Shown here in pieces: positions 4,589-57,396 of a stretch of DNA of 64,000 nt (positions are counted from its first letter, which is position 1; every line of letters begins with the position of its first letter). The stretch lies in assembly GCA_022606425.2 (NCBI GenBank), contig JAHDVF020000450.1, positions 62,001-126,000 of the forward strand, read 5' to 3'. A program made the position numbers and the translations under genes. Origin of the DNA: Lepidostoma basale (taxonomy: Eukaryota; Arthropoda; Insecta; Trichoptera; Lepidostomatidae). The notes under the pieces were generated by a model. It was not told where the DNA came from. It worked only from the letters and a program-made list of their open reading frames with translations, and made no database searches.

Positions 4589-5877
4589 TTAGGTCCTTAC
4601 ATATGAAATTGGCGTTTTGCCGTACTGGCAACTTTGATCTCAAATATCTTCTCTTTGGTTAGGGGAATTCCAAATTCAAATTTATACAGCTATTTACTCA
4701 AGTATTTGTGTTTCGAAAATTATAATTCATTTGTTTTTTCCTCAATTGTTTTTTTTCTTTGCGTCACTCAGTTTACAAAATGGAAAACTTGAAATATCGC
4801 GTTATTTACGAGTACGAGTTCCACCGTGGCACCAGTGCTGCAGAAACGGCTCGAAGGATTAATGATGTGTATGGCGACGGTGCCGCAAAAGAAAACACAG
4901 TGCGTTTTTGGTTCCAACGTTTTCGTTCTGGAAATTTCGACCTGCAGAACAAGCCCCGTGGACGGCCGGAGACCAAAGTTGATAATGAAGAATTGAAGGC
5001 TATTGTGGAAGCGGATCCATCGCAAACCACGTCCGAGTTAGCTGCAGGCTGCGGTGTTAGTGATAAAACTGTTTTAATCCACTTGAAGCAAATTGGGAAG
5101 GTGAAAAAGCTTGAAAGGTGGGTACCTCACGAATTGAGTGAAGCAAATCAACAAACGCGCGTTGACTGCCGCGTTGCATTACTCAACCGGCACAATAATG
5201 AAGGGATTTTGAATCGAATCATTACCTGTGATGAGAAGTGGATCCTGTATGATAATCGGAAGCGCTCATCGCAATGGCTGAACCCTGCCGAACCAGCCAA
5301 ACCATGCCCCAAGCGAAAATTGACTCCAAAAAAGTTACTTGTGAGCGTTTGGTGGACTAGTGCTGGTGTCGTTCACTACAGCTTTCTTAAATCTGGCCAG
5401 ACGATTACGGCAGATGTCTATTGTCAGCAACTGCAAACCATGATGGAAAAGCTAGCTGCTAAACAACCGAGGCTGGTTAATCGCTCTAGGCCACTGCTGC
5501 TTCATGATAACGCTAGACCACACACTGCACAACAGACGGCTACCAAATTAGAAGAGCTTCAATTGGAATGTCTAAGACATCCACCGTACTCTCCGGACCT
5601 TGCCCCAACAGATTACTATTTTTTTCGAAATTTGGATAACTTCTTGCAAGGGAAAAAATTCAACTCCGATGGGGCAGTCCAAACCGACTTCAAAGATTTT
5701 ATTGATTCCCGTCCGAATGGTTTTTTTAGTAAGGGGATCGATGAACTACCTATGAGATGGCAAAAGTGCATAGATAGCAATGGTACATACTTTGATTAAA
5801 TAAATATATTATATTTAAAAAAAATCAACTTTATATTTCTCCCATACAAAACGCCAATTTCATATGTAAGGACCTAA
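4589..5877 (+). mobile_element. Complete mariner element (cecropia-like, Hsmar1-related)
   Basis: The 1289-bp element has perfect 31-bp terminal inverted repeats: 4589-4619, beginning TTAGGTCCTTACATATG, and its exact complement at 5847-5877. TA dinucleotides at 4587-4588 and 5878-5879 match the expected target duplication. The single internal frame is unbroken. The element abuts a LINE B 3' end on its right. Perfect repeats with an open transposase imply a young, possibly active copy. Confidence 0.95.
4780..5799 (+). CDS. mariner transposase, intact
   Basis: The 339-residue frame, starting at MENLKYRVIYEYEF, has the normal mariner length. An in-frame ATG seven codons upstream (4759) is possible but lies outside the conserved N-terminus. 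The N-terminal half shows the two helix-turn-helix regions with the linker GRPETKVDNEELKAIVEADP and then KQIGKVKKLERWVPHEL, the mariner WVPHEL hallmark. Catalytic residues fit DD34D: D in ITCDEKWILYDN, D in LLHDNARPH, and the last D in YSPDLAPTDYYFF, 34 residues after the second. It resembles the Hsmar1/SETMAR group. It would cut and reinsert the element at TA sites in the nucleus. Nothing in the sequence shows current activity. Confidence 0.93.
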   Translation: MENLKYRVIYEYEFHRGTSAAETARRINDVYGDGAAKENTVRFWFQRFRSGNFDLQNKPRGRPETKVDNEELKAIVEADPSQTTSELAAGCGVSDKTVLIHLKQIGKVKKLERWVPHELSEANQQTRVDCRVALLNRHNNEGILNRIITCDEKWILYDNRKRSSQWLNPAEPAKPCPKRKLTPKKLLVSVWWTSAGVVHYSFLKSGQTITADVYCQQLQTMMEKLAAKQPRLVNRSRPLLLHDNARPHTAQQTATKLEELQLECLRHPPYSPDLAPTDYYFFRNLDNFLQGKKFNSDGAVQTDFKDFIDSRPNGFFSKGIDELPMRWQKCIDSNGTYFD

Positions 5878-10833: not shown

Positions 10834-13800
10834 GTTTCTTGCGAGCACTTGAATTGATTTTAAATACTAAGAAATCAATCAATTTTTTTGCTTATAGGTT
10901 ATGTATTTTTTATGTTCCAGTATTCCACGACTAGTAAAAAGGGATCAGGAATTCCAACAAATACATTAAAAGATACGTATACAGCAAATTATCAGCCGGA
11001 GAATGGCTCTATATACGACAAGAAACCCTTTAAAATGCCCCTGGTGGCTGGGAGGAAATATTTTTGGTGCGTATGTGGAAAATCTCACAGTCAGCCAATT
11101 TGCGACGGCACTCACAAAGATATATTCTTGAAGATAAAATTGAGGTTTGTTGGCTTTACAGCTTTATCTAATATACAAACTATCTTAACTGTCCTACTCG
11201 CAGACAACGAGCATGAACTACAAGTCCTTGTGAATTGTATGTATGAGGTGTGCATGCGAAATGATCTGATGATGAATGTTAATAAGTCCAAGGTAATGAT
11301 TTCTGAAAAAGAAGAAATCATGACAGTCTGTAACATTAGCGTGAATGGTGAAAATTTGGAGCAAGTAGATGAGTTAGTGTATTTAGGTAGTATGTTTACA
11401 AGAGATGGGCGAGTAGAGAGGGATATTGAAAGAAGGGTTGGGGCAGGCAACAAAGTGAATGGTGCACCTAAAGTTGTCATCGCAAACAAAAACCTATCCA
11501 AAAAAGCTAAAATGGCAGTGCACAATGGTGTTCTTCTACCGACCCCTATGTATGGAAGCGAATCATGGAACTGGCAAAAGAAGGATGAAAGTAGAATAAA
11601 TGCAGTAGAAATGAGATCTCTTAGACGAATGTGAGGATATTCTGTGTATGATAGTGTCTAATGAAAATATAAGAAGTGAATGATGGTGTTATGAACAAAA
11701 TAATGAAAGGATCATTAAGATGGTTTGGACATATGGAAAGAATGAATGAAGAAAGAATGGTAAAAAAAGTATATGTTAATGATGTAAATTGAACCAGAAA
11801 TAGAGGAAGACCGAGGAAAATGTGGCACGATCAAATAAATCAAATATTGAATGTCGGCCATGTGAGGAGTCAGAGAAATCGACGTGCGTGCATGACACGA
11901 TGTATGAATGTTGAGGAAGCGAGAGAAATATGTCAGGAAAGAAAAGTGTGGCAGTCCATTCTTTCTGCTTACCCCTTCGGAGAGATGGTGTGATGGTTAG
12001 TTAGTTAGTTAGATTCTTAACTGACTATCACACCGATGGACCACCACACTGCTCTATTCTGACATACTTCTCATTCTTCCTCTATATTCATACATCGAAA
12101 CTTGCACTTCGCTCTTCGATTTTTCTGGCTTCGAATGTGTCCACCTTTCAGTAATTTGGTTATGCCATGTTTCCTCATTTGTCTTCAGTTTCTATTTCCA
12201 TTCACACCACTTGTTTACAACTATTTAACCATTATTTTCTCATCCATATATCCTATATGCAAACAATTGAGTGATCCTTTTTAAGGCGTCTGTTGACATG
12301 GCTTAATACATTGTTGAAAATAATTAAGGAATAAACCCCAGATTATAGAAAATCATTTCCTGGAAGTAGTTAGGGATCAGCATATTTTATATTAATGAAT
12401 GTAGGTTCAGAAGACAAATGCTCTTTAGAGAGTATCTTGTCTTCCTAATGTCGAACCATCTCTCATGCGTTCCTGGTATTATGTTGTACTCGTATATAAT
12501 GTAATATTTGACCTGTACTAAATAGATGCCTTAAACATTTATGCTGTTTGTAATGTCTGTTGAGTTAATAAACTGATTTAATTTGATTTAACGCCTTCTG
12601 TATCTTATCTAAAACAAAATAATGTGTTGTTAAAATACACAGTGTAAAGGCAGAAACATACTATTAACACGCGACGTGGCGTGTTTACTCCCACCATCGG
12701 CAACACGTCGATCTAGCTCGTCTGGATCGGGTGGCGTGTGCGCGCATGGCGTCGCGTCGGTGTTCATAGTGTGATTCTGTCCATAGAAAACAATACAATT
12801 TGATTCGACTCAACACGCATCACGTGGCATCGGGTGGCGTGGCGTGTTAATAGTATGTTTCTGCCTTTATTCTATTTATTCAAATGCTGCGACTTGTTTA
12901 TTTTCAAAAATAAATTTAAGTTTCCCATTAGCAGCCCAACTTCTATTCTTCTTGTAAATGAATACTTCTTCTTCCGGCGCCGTGTCAGGTCCCCCCCAAC
13001 GTCGGCGATCACTGCAGCAAAGGGATCTCTGTCCTGCGCCACTTGGAACAGGTTCTGAACTCTTGTCATTCCCGTCCATTCTTTTATGTTCAGCAGCCAG
13101 GAGAACTCCCCGACGTCCTTCCGTATCATATCAGTTGTAGGAGGTGGTATTTCCCTCCCCTTAGCACATGACCCAAATATGAGACCTCGAAATGTATACT
13201 TCTTATTCTCAGTCGTATTCCTCATGATTGAGGGTCGTGTCCATCTTGTAAACCATTGACCATGGCACGCCATGCGCCCCTGTCACCCGTCAGTCTCCAG
13301 GCTGCAGCTAATGAGAGTCCAGTCAGATACCTGATTTGATCGGACCAGCGACTCGGTGGTTGTCCATGTGGTCGCCTTAAAAATAATAATAATAATATGC
13401 TAACTTTTAAAGCGCCGTTTTTGTGATGTAATCACCTCAAGGGCGCATTAAGACGTGTTTTAAATCTAAAAATCTAAATGTGAGCGCTTAAAAAACGATT
13501 GGTTTAAAAGTATAGTAGAACAAAGTATAAATGTTTAAATTGGGTATGAAATATGAAAAAGATGGGTTTTCAATTTAGTTCTGAAATCTGTCGGATCATT
13601 TATGCATCTAAGGTGTGAAGGGAGATTGTTCCAAGCTGATGGACCGGCTACCGCGAACGCTCGATCCCCGAAATTCGTACTGGGGCAACGCTTCGGCTCA
13701 ACTAATCTTCCTATTGCTGAGGAGTTCGCCGAGCGAAGTGTGGATTTCCGTGAATTTAGGCTGTCCGCTATACAGAGTTCAGATATATAACTTGGTGCCA

Positions 13801-37211: not shown

Positions 37212-37687
37212 GGTGGTGATAGACGTACGAACTTAAAGTCTGCGGTTTTTAAGATCGCGAACTTACTTGACTCGACGTCGGCGATACACGCGCCAACTTA
37301 GGTGATAGACGTACGAACTTAAAGTCTGCGGTTTTTAAGATCGCGAACTTACTTGACTCGACGTCGGCGATACACGCGCCAACTTACTCATACCGTATCG
37401 CGATGTCGTCCACTGAAGAAGCTTTGTGTTATTTAGGAATTATATCGTATTACATTTCAAAAACTAAAAACAATAGACGAAGGCGAAAGAAACAAAATGG
37501 CGGCTCGCGGCTCGCAGTGCTGCCACACGTACGAGCCAAGACGAGCTACGAGTAAGATTTCAAACCGGTTGGATCGCCGACGAACTTACTCGGCGGTTTT
37601 AAAGTACGCGTACTTACGGTGACACACGAGCGAAAAAGGTCGTCGAGCCATAAGTACGCGTACTTGCTCGCCCGTCTATCACCCACT
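37212..37687. mobile_element. TTAA-flanked MITE with internal 86-bp tandem duplication
   Basis: The ends GGTGGTGATAGACG and (complement) AGTGGGTGATAGACG are inverted repeats. TTAA lies at 37208-37211 and 37688-37691. Inside, 37215-37300 is repeated perfectly at 37301-37386. No coding capacity. Confidence 0.75.
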
Positions 37688-48160: not shown

Positions 48161-48390
48161 ATGTCAGTGAATCAGGCCCAAGCCGAGGGGGGAGTGGCGC
48201 CGGTGGCGGAGAACGGCGGCGGGGACGCGGCGGCCGAGGCCCCCGTGGACCCCGCGCCCCGCGAAGACGTCAAGAAGCACCCCACCGGCAGGACTGTCAT
48301 CGTCCGCAACCTGCCGCCCAGCATGCTCTTCAGCTTCCAGGAGGAGCTCAGGAATGAGTTCTCCAAATACGGAAATATTGGATATGTTAA
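48161..48390 (+). CDS. RRM protein coding exon 1 (N-terminus, start of RRM1)
   Basis: ATG at 48161 is the first in frame. The acceptor TCTCTTGCAG ends at 48130 (or CGCAG at 48143), so this exon probably starts with about 20-30 bp of 5' UTR. The donor is TTAA|GTGAGT, phase 2. Strong GC bias (48180-48330) contrasts with the flanks. Confidence 0.88.
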
Positions 48391-51300
48391 GTGAGTAGGA
48401 GTATTTATTATTATTATTATTTCTCGGCGCTACATCCCGGTGTGGGACTTGGAATCCTCCACAACGGTCCTCCCTTGACTTTTGTCTCTGGCCATCTCTC
48501 TCCATTCCCCAGCTCCTTCCATTTTCTTCCAATCTTTTTCCACGCAATCCGCCCATCTTTTCCTCGGTCTGCCTCTTGGTCTCTTTTTGCGAGGCACCTA
48601 TCTGGATATAATTTGTGGTGTTCTACCCTCTGGCATTCTTTCCACATGGCCAGCCCACCGTAGGCGTTGAGACTTACAGAGTCTCACTACAGTTTCCTGG
48701 TTAATTAGTTCTTCAAGTTCAAGGTTTCTTTTTATTCTGTAAGTCCCATCCTCCAGCGTGGGTCCAAAAAAAAGAAGTATTTATTATTTGATGATTAAAT
48801 AAATACGATAAAATTGTACCTCAAAGAAAACGGTTATTACCCCTGGCATACCCAACTGATTTCTTGCTGGGTATACTGGACTATCAATCATTGGAAATTA
48901 GACGAACTATCCATTTGGGTGTTCACTGATTCCCTGTCGAATACATAACTCCGATATTTTGAATGACTTGACATAGTTTGTCCCTGATCTGCGACAATGC
49001 CAACATTGATTATTTCACTCGCCACTGTGTAGAATCAATCTACCTAAGGTTATGCCCGTGGGCAGGGCCATAATCCTTCTAAACCGCATCTCTTCGGATG
49101 TGGACATCTTCCACTATAATGACGCCACCCTCAGAAAGCATCTATCTTTTATATAATGTTTTAAATATTTGCTTCTCTTGTTTTTCATATTGTACCACAT
49201 TGTTTCTTTTTACTTAATTGTTCTTAAATATATTTTCTTTTTATTTACAAATTGTTGTTATTTTTGTTATTTTTAATTGTAATTACAAATGAATTGGAAC
49301 ATGTTATAATGTAAAGGAAACACCCACAGAATGCTAATTATATTTGAAGCTAGGGCAATACATTTGTTTGATGCCTAAATAGGTTTGATGATTAGAAAAT
49401 GTATTTTTCAGACTCGGAGGAATTACGGTTGACCAGCACACCATCAACCCAACCCTCACTGCCTTCATGAACTTCTCCGACACGGAGTCCTCGGATAAGG
49501 CAAGTTTCTTAATATACATAATATCAAAAGATTAATCTTAACCCGTTGCACCACTAATAAAGTTGACATAATTTTTTCATACAACACACTATTTAATTTT
49601 GACTCATTTTTTTTATTACAATAACATTATGACTAAATTACACACAAAATAAAAATGGTAAAACTTAGATCATTATGGCTCATCTCCAGGTAGTTTTGGA
49701 ACAGTGTGATAAGCTTTAAAGCATTCTGGCATGTGGAGAGCCACCAAACATTTCTCACATTCCCATCGAGATTCACAATCATTAGAATCAAGTCACTAGA
49801 ATCACTAGAATATTCATGGGTTCGCTGTATTTGATCCTCATTTGATGAAATATTACAAGCGCGACGAGTTTGTTTACGAGTGCGTTGGGCCATTTTGGAG
49901 GTATTGACAGATGTTAAAATATCGTAATATTTTGTAATAAATAATGTGAAATGAATTGTGATTATTACATTTTATTATGAAATCAGTAACCGAAATATAC
50001 TTATTTATGTCATTTTTATGAATAAAGTTATTGTCACTCGGTTTTAATGTAAAAAAAATCATTTCAAAGACAAACCGGCGATTCGCCGGCTTTGTGTTGC
50101 AATTGGTTGACCTTTCCCTTACAGTGCTAAATTAAAAACGTGCGTTCCGGTGTAGGGTAGTCAGTACGCGTTAAAAAATTAGCGATTTTAAATCCATTAA
50201 ATAGGAACATTCATAGCTAATACCCTTATATAATTATAATTGAAGTCAAAATTTTTAATAATTGAGATCTGATTGCTAAAAACATTAAAAAACCATCTGG
50301 CAACGCTCACGGAACGGGCATAGACCCGCTCTGGTTGGAAGCCTGAAAGCGACTGCCGCCGGCGCGGCGGGACGGAGAGAGTGAGAACATTGAGCTAGAA
50401 CATATGCAAGAGTGAGATGCGAATATAGTGTCGCGTACTCAGCGCTACGAATTTTGTTTCCGATGTTCACAAAATACCTCCGATGTACCCGATGAATTCT
50501 GATTATTATTAATATTATTTTTTTAATCAATGCGTAAATATATTATGGAGGAATACCTAAAATCTTAACCTTGTATTTATTAAATGTATAGAGATATTGA
50601 TGGTTATTAGAAGCAACGTGTAGAAGATACCCATCACAGGGAAGGGAGGGTTAAACAGTGAAACCTCGTTGAAAGAAGGGCTGGTGCGGGTAAAAAAGTG
50701 AGTGGAGGTTTAAAAATATTTATTGGAAACAAGAATTTATCAATGAAAGCGAAAATGGCCGTTCACAATGGAATTCTGGTCCCAACCGTTGTGTATGGAA
50801 GCGAAGCATGGAACTGACAGATGAAGGATGAGAGAGAAGTAGAACGATGTACGACAGAATCTCAAATGCTGATGTAAGAAAGAGTCCTGGTTATAATATT
50901 GCGGATGTTTCCTCAGGCCATGGAGAGCAACGGAGTGGAGATGGGCGGCAACAGCCTGGAATTGCAGGTGCTGCGCTCCGGGGAGTACACCGCCGTCCTC
51001 AACAACATCCCGGCCATCATCAGCGAAGACACCCTGCGCTCCGTCTTCTCGCCCTGCGGCAACATCAAGAAGATCCTCAAGATCCCTGCGAGACCCACTG
51101 GTGAGTGTGCTCAATCCATTTAACTTCAGTCCTTTTATATATACAGATTTATCATCCGTCAAAGAGATCTCATTTCTACTGCATTTATTCTACTTTCATC
51201 CTTGTTTTGTCACCTCCTTGCTTCACTTCCATGCACAAGGGTCAGTACAAGAACACCATTGTGCTCTATCATCTTATCTGTATATTATGAGTGTCAAATC

Positions 51301-54300
51301 TAAATGTAAGAAGTGAATGCATTGTGAATGAAAATGTTATGAACAAAATAATGTAAGGATTATTACGATGGTATGGATTCATGAAAATAATGGTAAAGAA
51401 ATTATACAGGGATGATATAAATGGAACTAGAAATAGAGGAACACCGAGGAAAAACGTGCCACAATTAAAATTATCATGATCATCTTCGCAATTATTGTCT
51501 TACATTTTTTGTTTCATTGCAGCAATAATCAAATTTTGGCCTTACTTTTAGTCTTTAGTTGCAGCATTAATAAAATTTTGGCCTTACTTTTAGTGTTTTG
51601 TTGCAGCATTCATTGAATTTCGGCCATACTTTTATTGTTTAATTGCAGCATTAATAAAATTTTGGCCTTACTTTTAGTGTTTTGTTGCAGCATTCATTGA
51701 ATTTCGGCCATACTTTTATTGTTTGATTGCAGCATTAATCGAATTTTGGCCTTACTTTTAGTGTTTAATTGCAGCATTAATCGAATTTTGGCCTTACTTT
51801 TAGTGTTTAGTTGCAGCATTAATCGAATTTTAGTGTTTTATTGCAGCATTAATCGAATTTTGGCTTTAATTTTAGTGTTTTATTGCAGCATTAATCGAAT
51901 TTTGGCCTTACTTTTAGTGTTTAGTTGCAGCATTAATCGAATTTTAGTGTTTTATTGCAGCATTAATCGAATTTTGGCTTTAATTTTAGTGTTTTATTGC
52001 AGCATTAATCGAATTTTGGCCTTACTTTTAGTGTTTAGTTGCAGCATTAATCGAATTTTAGTGTTTTATTGCAGCATTAATCGAATTTTGGCTTTAATTT
52101 TAGTGTTTTATTGCAGCATTAATCGAATTTTGGCCTTACTTTTAGTGTTTAGTTGCAGCATTAATCGAATTTTGGCCTTAATTTTAGTGTTTTGTTGCAG
52201 CATTTATCGAATTTGATGACGAGGAGAGCTTAAACAAAATGCTGTCCCTGAACGGCACCATCTCCATGAACAACACGGACGTCACCATCCACCGACAGGG
52301 GGCTGAAATCAAACGAGTGAGTTCACCTGACAATGTAGTTATTTTTTTATTTATTTGAAAAGAAAGTTTTATTTTTAATCACAAAATGTGTCTAATAATA
52401 AACTGGCAGTAATTGAAGCAGGTCAACCGTCATCCAAGTAAGTACGTTTTGTAAACTAGCGCCACTAGCGATATCTTGTGTACCGTGATAGGCAGATGGG
52501 AATGTAGAGTGAAGGGTGCAACCAGTAGCGGTACTTCCATACAAGCCGGGAAGCCGGGCTTGCCTTAAAAAATCTATCTTCTTCGCGTACCGACGTTGGC
52601 AATCACTCCGGCGAAGGCTCTCGCCATAGTGATATCCTGGGAATGATAATCAGAGTGGTTTTCCGTTGTCTTCTCCGATGGGTTTTTCTGTAGGGGTCAC
52701 CTTCCCTTAGCTGGGGGGGCCGGTTTTATGGCGCCGGACACTCGCCATTCGCCCTCTCACTATCTGCTATGATACTGATGGTAATAACAGTGGCCACATT
52801 GCCCCCGAGAGACCACTCGTGGACGCTAGTGAGTAGGACTTGTTGGTAGTGTTGCTGGTGGTATATGCAACATGGTTTTTCGTGATATTTTATAGAAGTA
52901 TAACTTCCAGCAAGATATACCCCATCACGACCAGTGGCGTGCCTACAGTCAACCAGTAAGGCAAGCCGTCCGCCTTTTTTTTGTTATAATATTAGTAGAG
53001 GGTCACGATAATGTATTTCCCGGATTAAAAGAGTTTTATCTTTCTTAATTAATTTCGTGAATTAATTGATTTTAATTAATATTTTAGGCGTATTTTAAAT
53101 TTATACTAAAAATAATTTTCTGCGTCTTCAAATTCATGTTCTTGTATAATATAAGAATGTATTTACAGATATAAGAAGAAATATAATTAATAAGCTCTAA
53201 ATAGATAATAAAAATCAATTTGTTTACACCGAAACACGAATTATAAACAAATGTTCGTAAAAAAATGACTTAATCTTTCTTTTCATAACATTTCTGCACA
53301 TAACGTAAATGACAGATAACATTCTGACAATAGAAGAAGAATAGTAACATACTTCAGATTGATAAAGCCCGGTTTCAAATCCATACAAAAAATTGTAGAT
53401 ATCTCTTGGTATATATGCACCTAGCTATATGATTACAAGCCAAAAAGACGTAAGTGCGACAAAGACCCTTTTACATTTTGCAAGCCCAATATGAAGCCCA
53501 TCGAAAACATGAAACAAAACATGTGGACGTAGGCGTATTCGCGCGCATCTCATCTACAGCTACGGTACGTACGAATGAAATAAAATACGGCGCGTATGAG
53601 TGGAACAAAACATACATTTCTGCTCATGACAGCGGAGTCATTTGCAACGTAACGGATTAAATCGCTTTAACTCACGCGAAAATTCAAAATATTATTTTAT
53701 TCGTAGACGGCTCAAACGTGCAAAAAACATTGTTTTATTATAGATTTTTTAAGGCAAGTCCGGCTTTTCGGCTTGTATGGAAGTACCGCCACTGATCACG
53801 ACCTACCAACCATTGAACCCCAAACTATAATAAAACAATATTTTTTGCCCATTTGAGCAGTCTACGAATAAAATAATATTTAGAATTTCGCGCGAATTAA
53901 AGCGATTTAATTGCGTTGCAAATGACTCCGCTGACATGCGCAGAATTGACCTATGTGTATGTTTGTTTCACATATACGCGCCGTATTTGATTTCACTCAA
54001 ACATACCGTAGGTGAGATGCCCGCGAAATCGCCTACGTCCACATGTTTTGTTTCATGTTTTCGATGGGATTGCAAAATGTATAAGGGTCTTTGTCGCACT
54101 TATGTATTTTTGGCTTGTAATCATATAGCTAGGTGCATATATGCCAGAAGATATCTTAAATTTTTTGTATGGATTTGAATCCGGGCTTTATCACTCTGAA
54201 GTATGTTACTATTCAATGTGTCACGAACTTCATTTCTATTGTCAGAATGTTATCTGTCATTTACGTTATGTGCAGAAATGTTATGAAAAGAAAGATTATG

Positions 54301-57300
54301 TAATTTCTTTACGAACATTTATTTATAATTCGTGTTTCGGTGTTAACAAATTTATTATTATTGTCTATTTACAGCTTATTTATTATGAATTATATTTCTT
54401 CTTGTATATGTAAACACATTATTATATTACACAGAAGAAAAAAAATTGTATAGATTTATAATGAATCTTAAAATGCGATTTAAAATCAATTGATTCACAA
54501 AATTAATTTACAAAGATTCTTTTATCCGGAAAAACTCATTCAAATAGAAAGGGGTTGCCTTACTGGTTGACCCTAGGCACGCCACTGGGTGCAACAAGAA
54601 TATGTATGGAATTCTCTACCAATATTTTTGTTTGTAGCAATGCTACACTATGGTGGTCTAAAAACCAATGAAGGGTTAAACCTATGTGGTCTGTTCTTCG
54701 GAGGGTTGCTCCTCTCGTGAGGTGTATTCCCAGCGGTCCTTCCATCTTTTAAGAGATCTTTGACGAGAGTCCCGCGAGGAAGAAGAATAATGAGAGCAGA
54801 AAAGAATGGTTAAGAAGGTATATCTTTTCCAAAACACCCAAACCTGGTTATAGAAAATCAACCCATAGGTTCAGGACCCATGTCAGGACCTTCAAGTATC
54901 TAGGCGTAGACCTGGTGGGAAGAGCTGATCTGCGGGAAGAAATACAAGCTCAAGTAAACAAGGCAGCTGCAATCTCTGGGGCTCTAAAATCCACAATATG
55001 GTAAAATAAAGTCATGGCCATTAAGAGTAAGATGAGAATCTATAAAGCATGCGTAATACCAATAATAACATGGCGTCGAAAATCTTCCATTTTCATAAAA
55101 AAACAACGTAAATACGTTTTGTAAAATTTTATTTATACATTATATATAGAAAGTTTCAATCCTGGGATTGGTTTGCAGTAATTTCTTCTATTCTTCTCTT
55201 CCATTCTTCCCTGTCTTGTTCGGCTCTTTTGAAATCTGCATATGATGAGCAGCGCACGTCCACCAACAGGTCCTCCAGGTACTTGGCGTGGGCGTCCCCT
55301 CGGTCATACCCTCCATAATGGCTTGCAAGAGGCCCTCCTGACGTATTACATGGCCGATTTATCTTGCACGCCTTTATACATTACATATAATTTAATCCTT
55401 AAAACTCCGTTGGTCGCCATAGGGTTAATTTAATAATTGTTTAAGTAATATAAATAAATTTAAAAAGGAGTTTAAAAAAATAAAACCACAACCATGGGTA
55501 ATATTATTTGTTATCAGATATTAAAGTAACCGCTTTCAGAACGAATCCAAGAACAAGGCGAAAAAGTCGAAGATTGCGGCTTGCGTGAACCGTCCCGTCC
55601 CTCCCCCCGTCCCCCGCGGTCCCCCTCGCGGGGCTCCCCGCGGGGCGGGAGGCCCGCCGCGAGGGGGCCGCGGCCGCGTGGGCATCCAGCCGTGGATGCA
55701 GTCCAACTGGGGCGGGAACCAGTTCAACCAGTGGGACCAGGGCGACTTCCGAAGGAACTTTGGAGGGAACAACAACTGGGTGAGTATTCATAGTTGAAGC
55801 TTCAAATGCAATGGGGTCTTCAACCCTTTGGTTGTCGGCATTGTTGGGATCACTATGCAAAAATAAGGTGACTTTAGAGAATGTTATTCAATAGTAATGA
55901 ACGTAGAAATAATTAATACGAATTAAAATGACATTCATAAAAGGTCATTCATTACCCTGAAGATGGAGACTGCAACGATATCCGAAACGTCGGTCGAGAA
56001 GGAGTTATCACACGGTGTTACCCAAAAACACATCAAACGAATTAAAATGTCAGTTTTCTAGAAGTTTTATTATATTTTATGGGAATGACATGTTTCACCC
56101 TTTTATTAAATAATAATGGGATTCTAGTGATGACCCATATGTATGGAAGTGAAGCTTGGAGTGGACAGAAGAAGAATGAAAGTAGGATAAATTTGTAGAA
56201 ATGAAATCTCTTAGAAAAACAATTTATGATAGAATACTCAATGAAGAAGTTCGAAAGGAATGTAAGGCGGATGAATCCGTCCTAAATAAAATTAAGAAAG
56301 GGTCACTCAGTTGGTTTAGACACGTGGAACGAATGGATGAGGGAAGAATGGTCAAAAAGATGTACAGTGAAACCCCTATTTTATGTTTTTTAAGGGACCT
56401 AGAGATAAAAACGTAAATGGGGGGATAATTGCGTAGATTAGTTCGCAAAACGCGTGAAACAAAATGTAACCGATGTAGGGGTATTGAAAAAAACAACATT
56501 TAAATTTATTTATTTTTAAATCACGTAGATAAGCTCACAAAATGCGTGAACCGAAACGAAACCGATGTAAAAAGAAAGAAAATATTGTAATTTACTTTTT
56601 TTAAATTAACAAAAAACGTAAAAACTGTTTTTAAATGTCCATCGCGATTAATGTCAAAAAGAACGAAGCGCTACAAATCGAGTCGATAACCGAATGACAG
56701 AAGGACAGATGTTAACCGGTGAAAATTGAAAAATGTCGGCCAATCACCACGATTAGCGCCGTATGCCGACCAATAACAACGTCGCTCGCCGACCAATCAC
56801 GGCCGAAACGATGCGCAGACTAATTGTCAAGCGCGCTAAAAAAAAACAACGTAAAAGCGGGTAAAAAATGTTCTAAAATATATCGGGACTGAAATAATAA
56901 AACGCAATTGGCGGGAGAACGTTAAATACGGGGATGTAAAATCTGGGTTTAACTGTATACAAGTAGTGTGAATGGAAAAAGGATGGATTTCATTATGAAG
57001 ACTACAGGGGAAAAACAAGGAATGTCAGTAGAAGGTTAATTTGAATAAATTGAGAATAAAGCTAATCAAAGTCTATATATTTCTTAGCAATTAGCAATCG
57101 ATTATCTGACCATAGTCGATGACACACATGATTTTTGAATATGAAAATTTTACTGTGGATAGATACGTACAAATGCCGCTAGATGGCATTATTACATTTA
57201 TTTTGAATTTTAACTGACATTCCTTGTTTTTCCCCTGTAGTCTTCATTTCTACTGTATTATTTTTTCGTTGTTATTAATTATTTAATAAACAATTGGCAT

Positions 57301-57396
57301 TGTCCGCAGGGGAACAACGGCAACTTCCCGAACATGAACGAGGACCAGATGGGCTTCAAGAGGAGGAAACAGAACGACTGGATGTACAAGTACTAA
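48161..57396 (+). CDS. Two-RRM, RGG-tailed RNA-binding protein (gene span, 6 coding exons)
   Basis: Exons 48161-48390, 49412-49499, 50917-51100, 52201-52316, 55540-55779 and 57310-57396 join in frame to 314 residues. The acidic, Ala-rich N-terminus (1-40) precedes RRM1 (about 45-123): RTVIVRNLPPSM is RNP2 and LTAFMNFSDTESS the RNP1 strand. RRM2 (about 130-200) has YTAVLNNIPAII and TAFIEFDDEESL. A Lys-rich linker leads to an RGG-type tail, RGPPRGAPRGAGGPPRGGRG, then a Trp/Asn/Gln-rich segment, ending KRRKQNDWMYKY. The layout resembles nucleolin/hnRNP-type proteins; I do not recognise the exact orthologue. It likely binds RNA in the nucleus. Intron 2 is GC-AG, and intron 3 ends in the splice-acceptor array at 51529-52200. 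A noncoding 5' exon may exist upstream. Confidence 0.9.
48405..48775 (-). mobile_element. RTE-type LINE 3' fragment in intron 1
   Basis: The minus strand reads LRWAGHVERMPEGRTPQIIS-like, KKRPRGRPRKRWADCVEKD and AGEWREMARDKSQG. Its tail is the (ATT)n visible as TTATTATTATTATT at 48407-48420. Confidence 0.7.
48820..49170 (+). mobile_element. LINE B-prime fragment in intron 1
   Basis: TTCTTGCTGGGTATACTGGA and CTAAGGTTATGCCCGTGGGC match the B-prime copies at 17112 and 21620. Heavily decayed. Confidence 0.6.
49412..49499 (+). CDS. RRM protein coding exon 2
   Basis: The acceptor GTATTTTTCAG precedes ACTCGGAGG; Lys is split with exon 1. It encodes LGGITVDQHTINPTLTAFMN and FSDTESSDK. It ends AAG|GCAAGT, a GC-type donor, in phase 0. 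Confidence 0.87.
49542..50170. mobile_element. Miniature piggyBac-like element with N-C fused coding relic
   Basis: Borders are TTAA at 49538-49541 and 50171-50174; ends CCCGTTGCACC and (complement) CGCGTACTGAC. On the minus strand, a start at 49893 (MAQRTRKQTRRACNISSNED) runs into an acidic segment, and a +1 frame gives CESRWECEKCLVALHMPECF then KAYHT, the cysteine-rich C-terminal domain of piggyBac transposases. The catalytic core is absent. A CCGGCGATTCGCCGG hairpin lies at 50086-50100. It sits in RRM-gene intron 2. Confidence 0.7.
50175..50650. other. Intron 2, no recognised feature
   Basis: A GC-richer patch at 50290-50390 has no recognisable coding or repeat identity. Confidence 0.3.
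50660..50886 (+). mobile_element. LINE A fragment in intron 2
   Basis: AGAAGGGCTGGTGCGGGTAA through [20 protein letters not shown] and ATGTACGACAGAATCTCAAA. It ends only about 30 bp before exon 3. Confidence 0.75.
50917..51100 (+). CDS. RRM protein coding exon 3 (end RRM1, start RRM2)
   Basis: The acceptor ATGTTTCCTCAG precedes GCC ATG GAG. It encodes AMESNGVEMGGNSLELQVL then EYTAVLNNIPAIISEDTLRS and CGNIKKILKIPARPT. The donor is CACTG|GTGAGT, phase 1. High GC compared with flanks. Confidence 0.9.
51120..51480. mobile_element. Two decayed LINE A pieces in intron 3
   Basis: 51150-51270 reads as minus-strand LINE A (AGATCTCATTTCTACTGCAT); 51300-51465 reads as plus-strand LINE A (AAACACCGAGGAAAAACGTG). 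They are opposed and both truncated. Confidence 0.6.
51529..52200 (+). repeat. Tandem array of 3' splice-site/exon-start units before exon 4
   Basis: Eighteen GCAGCA-type units occur at 51529, 51561, 51603, 51645, 51687, 51729, 51771, 51813, 51843, 51885, 51927, 51957, 51999, 52041, 52071, 52113, 52155 and 52197. Spacing is 42 or 30 bp (one 32), with a 42+42+30 higher-order period. The unit is TTTTAGTGTTTTGTTGCAG|CATTAATCGAATTTTGG. The last unit is the true acceptor, TTGTTGCAG|CATTTATCGAATTTGA, where exon 4 begins. Each upstream unit keeps a pyrimidine-leaning tract, CAG and an imperfect copy of the exon's first 14 bases. Confidence 0.93.
52201..52316 (+). CDS. RRM protein coding exon 4 (RNP1 of RRM2)
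   Basis: Completes the split Ala codon (G|CA): AFIEFDDEESLNKMLSLNGT and ISMNNTDVTIHRQGAEIKR. AFIEF is the RNP1 core. The donor is CGA|GTGAGT, phase 0. Confidence 0.9.
52322..52435 (+). repeat. Dispersed repeat shared with 61297-61766
   Basis: CACCTGACAATGTAGTTATT at the left and AATGTGTCTAATAATAAACT at the right match the two ends of the longer copy at 61297-61766, so this looks like an internally deleted form. It begins at the exon 4 donor. Confidence 0.5.
52581..52931 (-). mobile_element. LINE C-terminal fragment inside the outer hAT
   Basis: The minus strand near the left end reads MARAFAGVIANVGTR, related to the AAVIADVG relic at 12966. It forms the DNA into which the inner hAT inserted. 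Confidence 0.55.
52932..53794. mobile_element. Inner hAT MITE with exact 8-bp duplication
   Basis: Ends CAGTGGCGTGCC and GTACCGCCACTG; duplication ATCACGAC at 52924-52931 and 53795-53802. It is 863 bp, in opposite orientation to the outer element, so the two together form long inverted repeats. Confidence 0.9.
54600..54830. other. Intron 4, unclassified
   Basis: Possibly a LINE remnant (CCATCTTTTAAGAGATCTTT, GAGAGCAGAAAAGAATGGTT), too short to assign. Confidence 0.25.
54835..55080 (+). mobile_element. RTE-type LINE fragment in intron 4
   Basis: In one frame: FKYLGVDLVGRADLREEIQA, QVNKAAAISGALKSTIW, then SKMRIYKACVIPIIT. It is the post-RT region of an RTE-clade LINE. Confidence 0.65.
55130..55380 (-). 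mobile_element. LINE relic, same family as 18240-18625
   Basis: The reverse complement gives GDAHAKYLEDLLVDVRCSSY-like sequence and FKRAEQDREEWKRRIEEIT. Confidence 0.6.
55540..55779 (+). CDS. RRM protein coding exon 5 (Lys linker and RGG tail)
   Basis: The acceptor ACCGCTTTCAG precedes AAC GAA TCC. It encodes NESKNKAKKSKIAACVNRPV, the Pro/Arg/Gly-rich repeat and QPWMQSNWGGNQFNQWDQGD. The donor is TGG|GTGAGT, phase 0. Very GC-rich at 55590-55680. Confidence 0.92.
55955..56020 (+). repeat. Hammerhead-like motif repeat (type 3)
   Basis: CTGAAGATGGAGACTGCAAC then GATATCCGAAACGTCGG: CUGANGA, a GGA/UCC stem and GAAAC in hammerhead order. Followed by GAGAAGGAGTTATCACACGG, as at 26345. A pair-1 arm follows at 56050-56105. 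Confidence 0.5.
56108..56364 (+). mobile_element. LINE A fragment in intron 5
   Basis: GGTATTCTAGTGATGACCCA-like start, then [38 protein letters not shown] and RHVERMDEGRMVKKM. It continues after the pogo insertion at 56958 (CAAGTAGTGTGAATGGAAAA). Confidence 0.75.
56365..56955. mobile_element. pogo/Tigger-like MITE with TA duplication
   Basis: Ends CAGTGAAACCCC and GGGTTTAACTG are inverted; TA lies at 56363-56364 and 56956-56957. LINE A sequence is continuous once this 591-bp element and one TA are removed. Non-coding. Confidence 0.85.
56996..57246. mobile_element. Short element with perfect 34-bp inverted repeats
   Basis: 56996-57029 (TGAAGACTACAGGGGAAAAA onward) and 57213-57246 are exact complements. 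The 251-bp unit ends 63 bp before exon 6. No obvious target duplication; superfamily unknown. Confidence 0.8.
57310..57396 (+). CDS. RRM protein coding exon 6 (C-terminus)
   Basis: The acceptor CATTGTCCGCAG precedes GGG AAC AAC. It encodes GNNGNFPNMNEDQMGFKRRK and QNDWMYKY, then TAA. The Lys/Arg pair cluster could be a nuclear signal. Confidence 0.9.
   Translation, partial: GNNGNFPNMNEDQMGFKRRKQNDWMYKY

Follow-up and report, generated by a model that had tools for sequence, protein, structure and literature searches.

Tandem repeats that span intron/exon boundaries were named 'mirages' in the amphioxus Adh3 gene, and were also described in the amphioxus globins BflGb6/BflGb9 and troponin C, with similar repeats in PGBD5 (PMC3087553, PMC3902484; statements on these papers refer to the portions of their text available to us). 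Mirage units measure 10-72 bp in Adh3 and 150-160 bp in BflGb6 (PMC3087553, PMC3902484). In these portions, Adh3 data and RT-PCR of the globins are said to suggest that regular splicing is undisturbed (PMC3087553, PMC3902484), and the globin paper adds that alternative transcripts could arise if the copied signals served as cryptic sites (PMC3087553). In C. elegans, CeRep25B is an intronic minisatellite located near alternative exons and tied, in the accessible part of its description, to multiple splicing decisions (PMC4039745).

Here we examine a tandem array of acceptor motifs in an RRM gene of the caddisfly Lepidostoma basale, located in a window of 64,000 nucleotides (the whole stretch of DNA that was analysed, whose coordinates are used throughout). 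Decoy exons, detained introns and the poison exons of NMD autoregulation likewise place extra splice sites beside a real one and give non-productive products, and in NAGNAG and other close tandem acceptors several AGs compete for one donor. Our best explanation, to which we assign a probability of about 0.76, is that the array is a minisatellite of the mirage type that is largely silent, with the last acceptor being chosen via its exon context.

The host gene and the anatomy of the array

The RRM gene consists of 6 exons on the + strand (48161-57396) and closes as a 945-nt ORF encoding 314 aa. Exon 1 (48161-48390; coding from the ATG, donor GTGAGT) is supported by the closed gene model and by homology to protein P0002 of the caddisfly Arctopsyche grandis, and exon 2 (49412-49499), taken from the gene model, leads into GCAAGT, a GC donor of non-standard type. 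Exon 3 (50917-51100) ends with ...CCCACTG/GTGAGT in phase 1, at an intron position common to the paralog L022. Exon 4 (52201-52316) begins with AFIEFDDEE... after the true acceptor TTTTGTTGCAG/CATTTATCG, and P0002 makes the equal join (AFVEFEDEE). The gene model is completed by the Pro/Gly/Arg-rich exon 5 (55540-55779) and by exon 6 (57310-57396, stop TAA). Two stretches of the protein match RRM_1 (Pfam), the better of which, residues 134-193, is split across exons 3 and 4.

A motif search in 51100-52330 retrieved 18 TTGCAG acceptors, with intron ends at 51522, 51564 ... 52158 and 52200, separated by 42 bp in 14 cases and by 30 bp in the other 3. TRF called the repeat at 51499-52214 (period 42, 17.9 copies), with a second call at 51714-52173 (period 114, 4.0 copies, 98%). 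Together with the TTGCAG spacing, this delineates a junction-spanning minisatellite on the + strand, 51499-52200, composed of 17 decoy acceptor units and the true acceptor. The unit spans the boundary, with 28 nt from the end of the intron 3 side and 14 nt from the start of the exon 4 side; its commonest 42-bp form starts with the exon-like CATTAATCGAATTT, continues with TGGCCTTACTTTTAGTGTTTAG and closes with TTGCAG, and the 30-bp units are the 42-bp unit without its 12 middle bases. True exon 4 opens with CATTTATCGAATTTGATGAC, and the exonic bases of unit 17 agree with the true exon start (CATTTATCGAATTT) in 13/14 positions, an identity with a chance of ~1.6e-6 at a fixed place. The authentic boundary is both the end of the array and the boundary of the gene model.

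An earlier, sequence-only reading of this DNA had proposed 18 tandem 3' splice acceptors, the last being the real exon 4 boundary, in units of 30 or 42 bp that cross the intron/exon junction, and all of this is borne out by the motif spacings, the gene model and the exonic part of unit 17. It had placed the array start at 51529, which TRF moves to near 51499, and its 42+42+30 super-period holds in the 3' part of the array (shift 114) but gives way to an 84-bp period in the 5' part.

Adjoining the array on its upstream side is a dispersed repeat (51412-51476, + strand) that is found in at least 40 further places, 40 of 1286 candidates having been scored and each match being confined to 51400-51482; it is probably transposon-derived. 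Further features were seen elsewhere in the window. Intron 2 (49500-50916), with its donor AAG/GCAAGT and an AG acceptor, is a GC-AG intron. Intron 4 contains a large imperfect foldback (52523-54588) that resembles a transposon of the foldback or MITE type. It comprises 11 pairs of inverted repeats, whose arms measure 33-153 nt and are complementary to 83-93%; most pairs are nested around ~53.8 kb. A 357-aa open frame at 4726-5799 with HTH_48 (Mos1-type) and Transposase_1 domains encodes a mariner-like transposase; an open frame at 10864-11634 carries a CDGSH iron-sulfur domain (Pfam matching the CDGSH part only), after which its in-frame tail looks like a retroelement; and 37215-37386 is a perfect tandem duplication of 86 bp.

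Origin, growth and distribution of the array

The 3' part of the array (51768-52173, + strand) has a perfect 114-bp period over 406 bases, with an exact self-match of 292 bases from 51768 at shift 114. Such perfect periodicity points to a recent expansion, and to recent change at a locus that was found in one copy in the assembly. The older 5' part (51559-51732, + strand) follows an 84-bp super-period, marked by an 82-base exact self-match run from 51559; units 2 and 4 are identical there, and units 3 and 5, differing at one base, are 98% identical. The most diverged units are units 1-5 at the 5' side, with unit 1 being 76-93% and unit 5 76-98% identical to the others. Such a pattern fits a minisatellite that grows through slippage or unequal crossover and keeps its older copies at the edge, and the number of units is probably variable. 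No decayed older units were detected further upstream in intron 3, where the best ungapped match was 21/42, as compared to a mean of 20.3 and a maximum of 25 of 42 in 300 shuffles.

The array arose from a duplicated intron/exon boundary. The paralog keeps the AFIEF motif, as does A. grandis in the form AFVEF, so copying most likely went from the exon to the array. Initially, the terminal 28 nt of intron 3 would have been duplicated in tandem together with the opening 14 nt of exon 4; at least two rounds of expansion via slippage or unequal crossover would have followed, with super-units of 84 bp and 114 bp. Slippage of a duplicated splice site had been offered earlier as the null model, and both the junction-spanning units and the homogenised 114-bp repeats speak for it.

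A search of the 769-Mb genome, in which simple repeats and very common words were skipped, found no second place for the array. In the paralog L022 (contig C1254), the intron at the matching position and phase ends in a single TTTCAG/CCTTCATCGAATTCGAAG, and the exon start after it also encodes AFIEF; this intron was inspected whole, and from exon 3 to exon 4 of the paralog TRF detected no tandem repeats. Downstream of the exon 4 match, at L022:5719-5925, the paralog has a tandem array of its own (41-bp x 5), whose unit contains the donor-like word GGTAGGT.

The sole near-full-length relative that we found is LOC143912054 (P0002) of A. grandis, with 95/191 aligned residues identical and likewise two RRM_1 stretches. 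It reads ...PARPTAFVEFEDEE, which is the join produced by the last acceptor position; its ortholog may be either the RRM gene or the paralog. A protein-fragment search gave one match, P0001 (77 aa, from a second species), which reads PTG-KFDIS after exon 3 and fits an equal intron position, its acceptor lying outside the view. The translation of the array itself, a 171-aa open frame, had no protein database match at E <= 1 among 7996 candidates scored.

As a base rate, we surveyed 60 stretches (205,882 bases), half of them surrounding RRM matches (30 of the 129 listed) and half surrounding kinase matches (30 of the 136 listed); these are partly redundant, with several per contig or gene and with the C77 and C301 matches looking duplicated. 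They contained 44 tandem-repeat rows of period at least 10. Four of the repeats lay in or near an open frame (copies 2.0-3.5), and none of the four resembled an acceptor array, as judged by consensus unit and copy number alone. The survey weakly bounds the frequency of such arrays in the genome.

Probable acceptor choice and predicted fate of decoy products

Splicing of exon 3 to any of the 17 decoy units yields a premature stop, as the sequence-only reading had predicted for 17 decoys beside one real acceptor. It had further expected ALIEF from every upstream unit and a stop within about 10 codons. ALIEF is encoded by 12/17 decoys (units 6-17), the remainder reading ALIKF (units 2 and 4), AIIKF (unit 1) or AFIEF (units 3 and 5); the stop comes at codon 6-10 after the junction in 15/17 decoys but at codon 24 in units 3 and 5. 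These two units (51606-51648 and 51690-51732) are without the TTTTAG stop. Their AFIEF is synonymous to the exon 4 start, from which it differs by two synonymous changes; that it is a fossil of earlier exon sequence is suggestive only, with two substitutions behind it. In shuffled array sequence 83% of frames stop within 28 codons, and the units were copied from one another, so the decoy stops are no evidence of design. Early stops were accordingly rejected as a sign of function, being expected from copying and base composition.

The acceptor signals themselves do not single out the last site. A branch-point-like yTnAy motif (a loose pattern) is located 19-36 nt before the AG in 18/18 acceptors, and the pyrimidine content before the AG is 0.65 at the true site and 0.60-0.75 in the decoys, indicating that the true acceptor is not intrinsically stronger. 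That the last pyrimidine tract is no stronger than the decoy tracts is a point against our best reading; others are that in classic experiments with duplicated 3' splice sites the donor-nearest site can win at equal exon context, and that an 18-copy array might be a burden in a functional gene unless tolerated or used. The cryptic-site potential that the globin paper allows for the copied amphioxus signals (PMC3087553) also counts against it, as does the folding of the array, which is better than that of its shuffles (see below).

Downstream context, on the other hand, sets the last acceptor apart from all 17 decoys. The first 60 nt past the true acceptor have a purine fraction of 0.55 (0.40-0.43 for the decoys) and two GAR/GANGAR-like matches (none in each of the decoys), exon 4 carries a purine-rich stretch, GACGAGGAGAG, from about +18, and the donor lies 116 nt away, as compared to 158-794 nt from the decoys. 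Exon definition and SR-protein enhancers are established principles of splice-site choice, and under these principles the downstream purine/enhancer context suggests that the last acceptor should win. On paper each unit is an acceptor, its TTGCAG being preceded by a mediocre pyrimidine tract and by a motif that resembles a branch point. Most likely the spliceosome would still pick the last copy, because exon sequence follows this copy alone, with enhancer-like purines within ~20 nt and the donor at 116 nt. Some leakage into the decoys may occur; it would lead to a premature stop and probably to removal by nonsense-mediated decay (NMD), at little cost. We infer the choice of acceptor, the decay of the leak and the near-neutrality of the array from sequence features.

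In a different and improbable reading, the array is an unproductive-splicing rheostat, whose decoys would send transcripts to NMD in a proportion that depends on copy number, perhaps with feedback by the RRM protein. The product of the gene has two RRM stretches, and proteins of this class are known to regulate themselves through NMD-coupled alternative splicing. Each of the 17 decoys would lead to a premature stop and has, besides its CAG, a T-rich tract and, 19-36 nt before the AG, a loosely defined branch-point-like motif. However, the stops and the motif conservation are as copying gives, the paralog intron has no array, and the units were recently homogenised, so that their number is probably variable. 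Less probable still is that the slippage-prone array length would tune the dose of the RNA-binding protein, which may itself bind the array. U2AF titration, slowed splicing, a copy-number rheostat and autoregulation had all been suggested by the sequence-only reading; they lose ground given the one copy found in the genome, the array-free paralog and the recent homogenisation, and the acceptor conservation and stops on which such functional ideas draw are accounted for by copying or chance.

The motif-invariance, stop-codon and unit-length comparisons revealed no sign of selection on the array. With 12 variable columns of 42, none of them within the six of TTGCAG, the invariance of this motif has a chance P of 0.11 (0.51 for AG alone), and we rejected it as a sign of function. 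The same holds for the unit lengths both being multiples of 3, expected in ~1 in 9 cases and without coding effect.

Even less credence goes to a splicing-factor sponge or brake, in which the pyrimidine-AG units would bind U2AF or competitors and slow the removal of intron 3 (a detained intron). The 18 T-rich acceptor cassettes within ~0.7 kb would suit such a role and comparable 'decoy exon' cases exist in other genes, but G and A interrupt the pyrimidine tracts, which are mediocre at 0.60-0.75, and the comparisons above gave no sign of selection.

RNA structure might also hide the decoys, for example through pairing of neighbouring UGCA palindromes, leaving the last CAG alone accessible; this we regard as very improbable. 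The whole array folds better than 20/20 shuffles (z -2.95, a score that tandem repeats can inflate), and in 80-nt windows the last CAG is unpaired at 0.26 as compared to 0.01-0.09 for decoys 7-17. However, decoys 1-6 are similarly or more accessible (0.22-0.80), and in 150- and 240-nt windows the value for the last CAG drops to 0.04 and 0.01, with its advantage gone. Being window-dependent, structure was rejected as a sign of function. Finally, perfect tandem repeats can expand or collapse during assembly and the 114-bp repeats would be prone to this, but an array of ~0.7 kb on a 493-kb contig, with diverged and individually recognisable 5' units and a junction-spanning design that is independent of exact copy number, makes a partly artefactual copy number the least probable reading of all.

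Relation to described systems

The best explanation, a largely silent minisatellite of the mirage type, builds on structural features that the caddisfly array appears to share with mirages. Usable-looking splice signals are present throughout (18/18 TTGCAG and, under the loose pattern, 18/18 yTnAy). As far as the available portions of the amphioxus papers go, both systems consist of boundary-spanning tandem repeats, AG/GT being kept in many but not all amphioxus units; in BflGb6, as here, the 3' end of an intron and the 5' part of the next exon are duplicated; and in both the inner units are homogenised while an edge unit is distinct. Unlike the amphioxus mirages, the caddisfly array sits in an insect RRM gene and has a 114-bp higher-order period, and its 17 extra copies compare with the 6 and 3 repeat units described for the two BflGb6 haplotypes. 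Regular splicing and length polymorphism belong, in those portions, to the amphioxus mirages, whereas the caddisfly array is known from sequence alone.

CeRep25B is similar in being a minisatellite associated with splicing decisions; in contrast, it is a family found at many places, and the part of its description available to us includes no splice-junction duplication (PMC4039745). The decoy and poison-exon systems resemble the array in their extra sites by the real site, their non-productive products and their occurrence in RNA-binding-protein genes, but the caddisfly units are half-sites (acceptors only) rather than exons. From NAGNAG-type acceptors the array differs in that its acceptors are 30-42 nt apart and are full cassettes, one of which alone is productive.

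The array also forms an uncommonly clean natural experiment, offering 18 similar cassettes that differ in downstream sequence and in their distance from both donors. Junction counts per unit would gauge the relative weight of proximity, scanning and exon context in the choice made by the spliceosome, and would also tell whether new introns or regulatory leaks originate in arrays of this kind. No insect case of the mirage type was found in one open-licence library, in part among top-ranked entries only. The kind is already described, and the caddisfly array would be a long and orderly insect example of it, an indication that mirage minisatellites across splice junctions also occur outside the lancelets.
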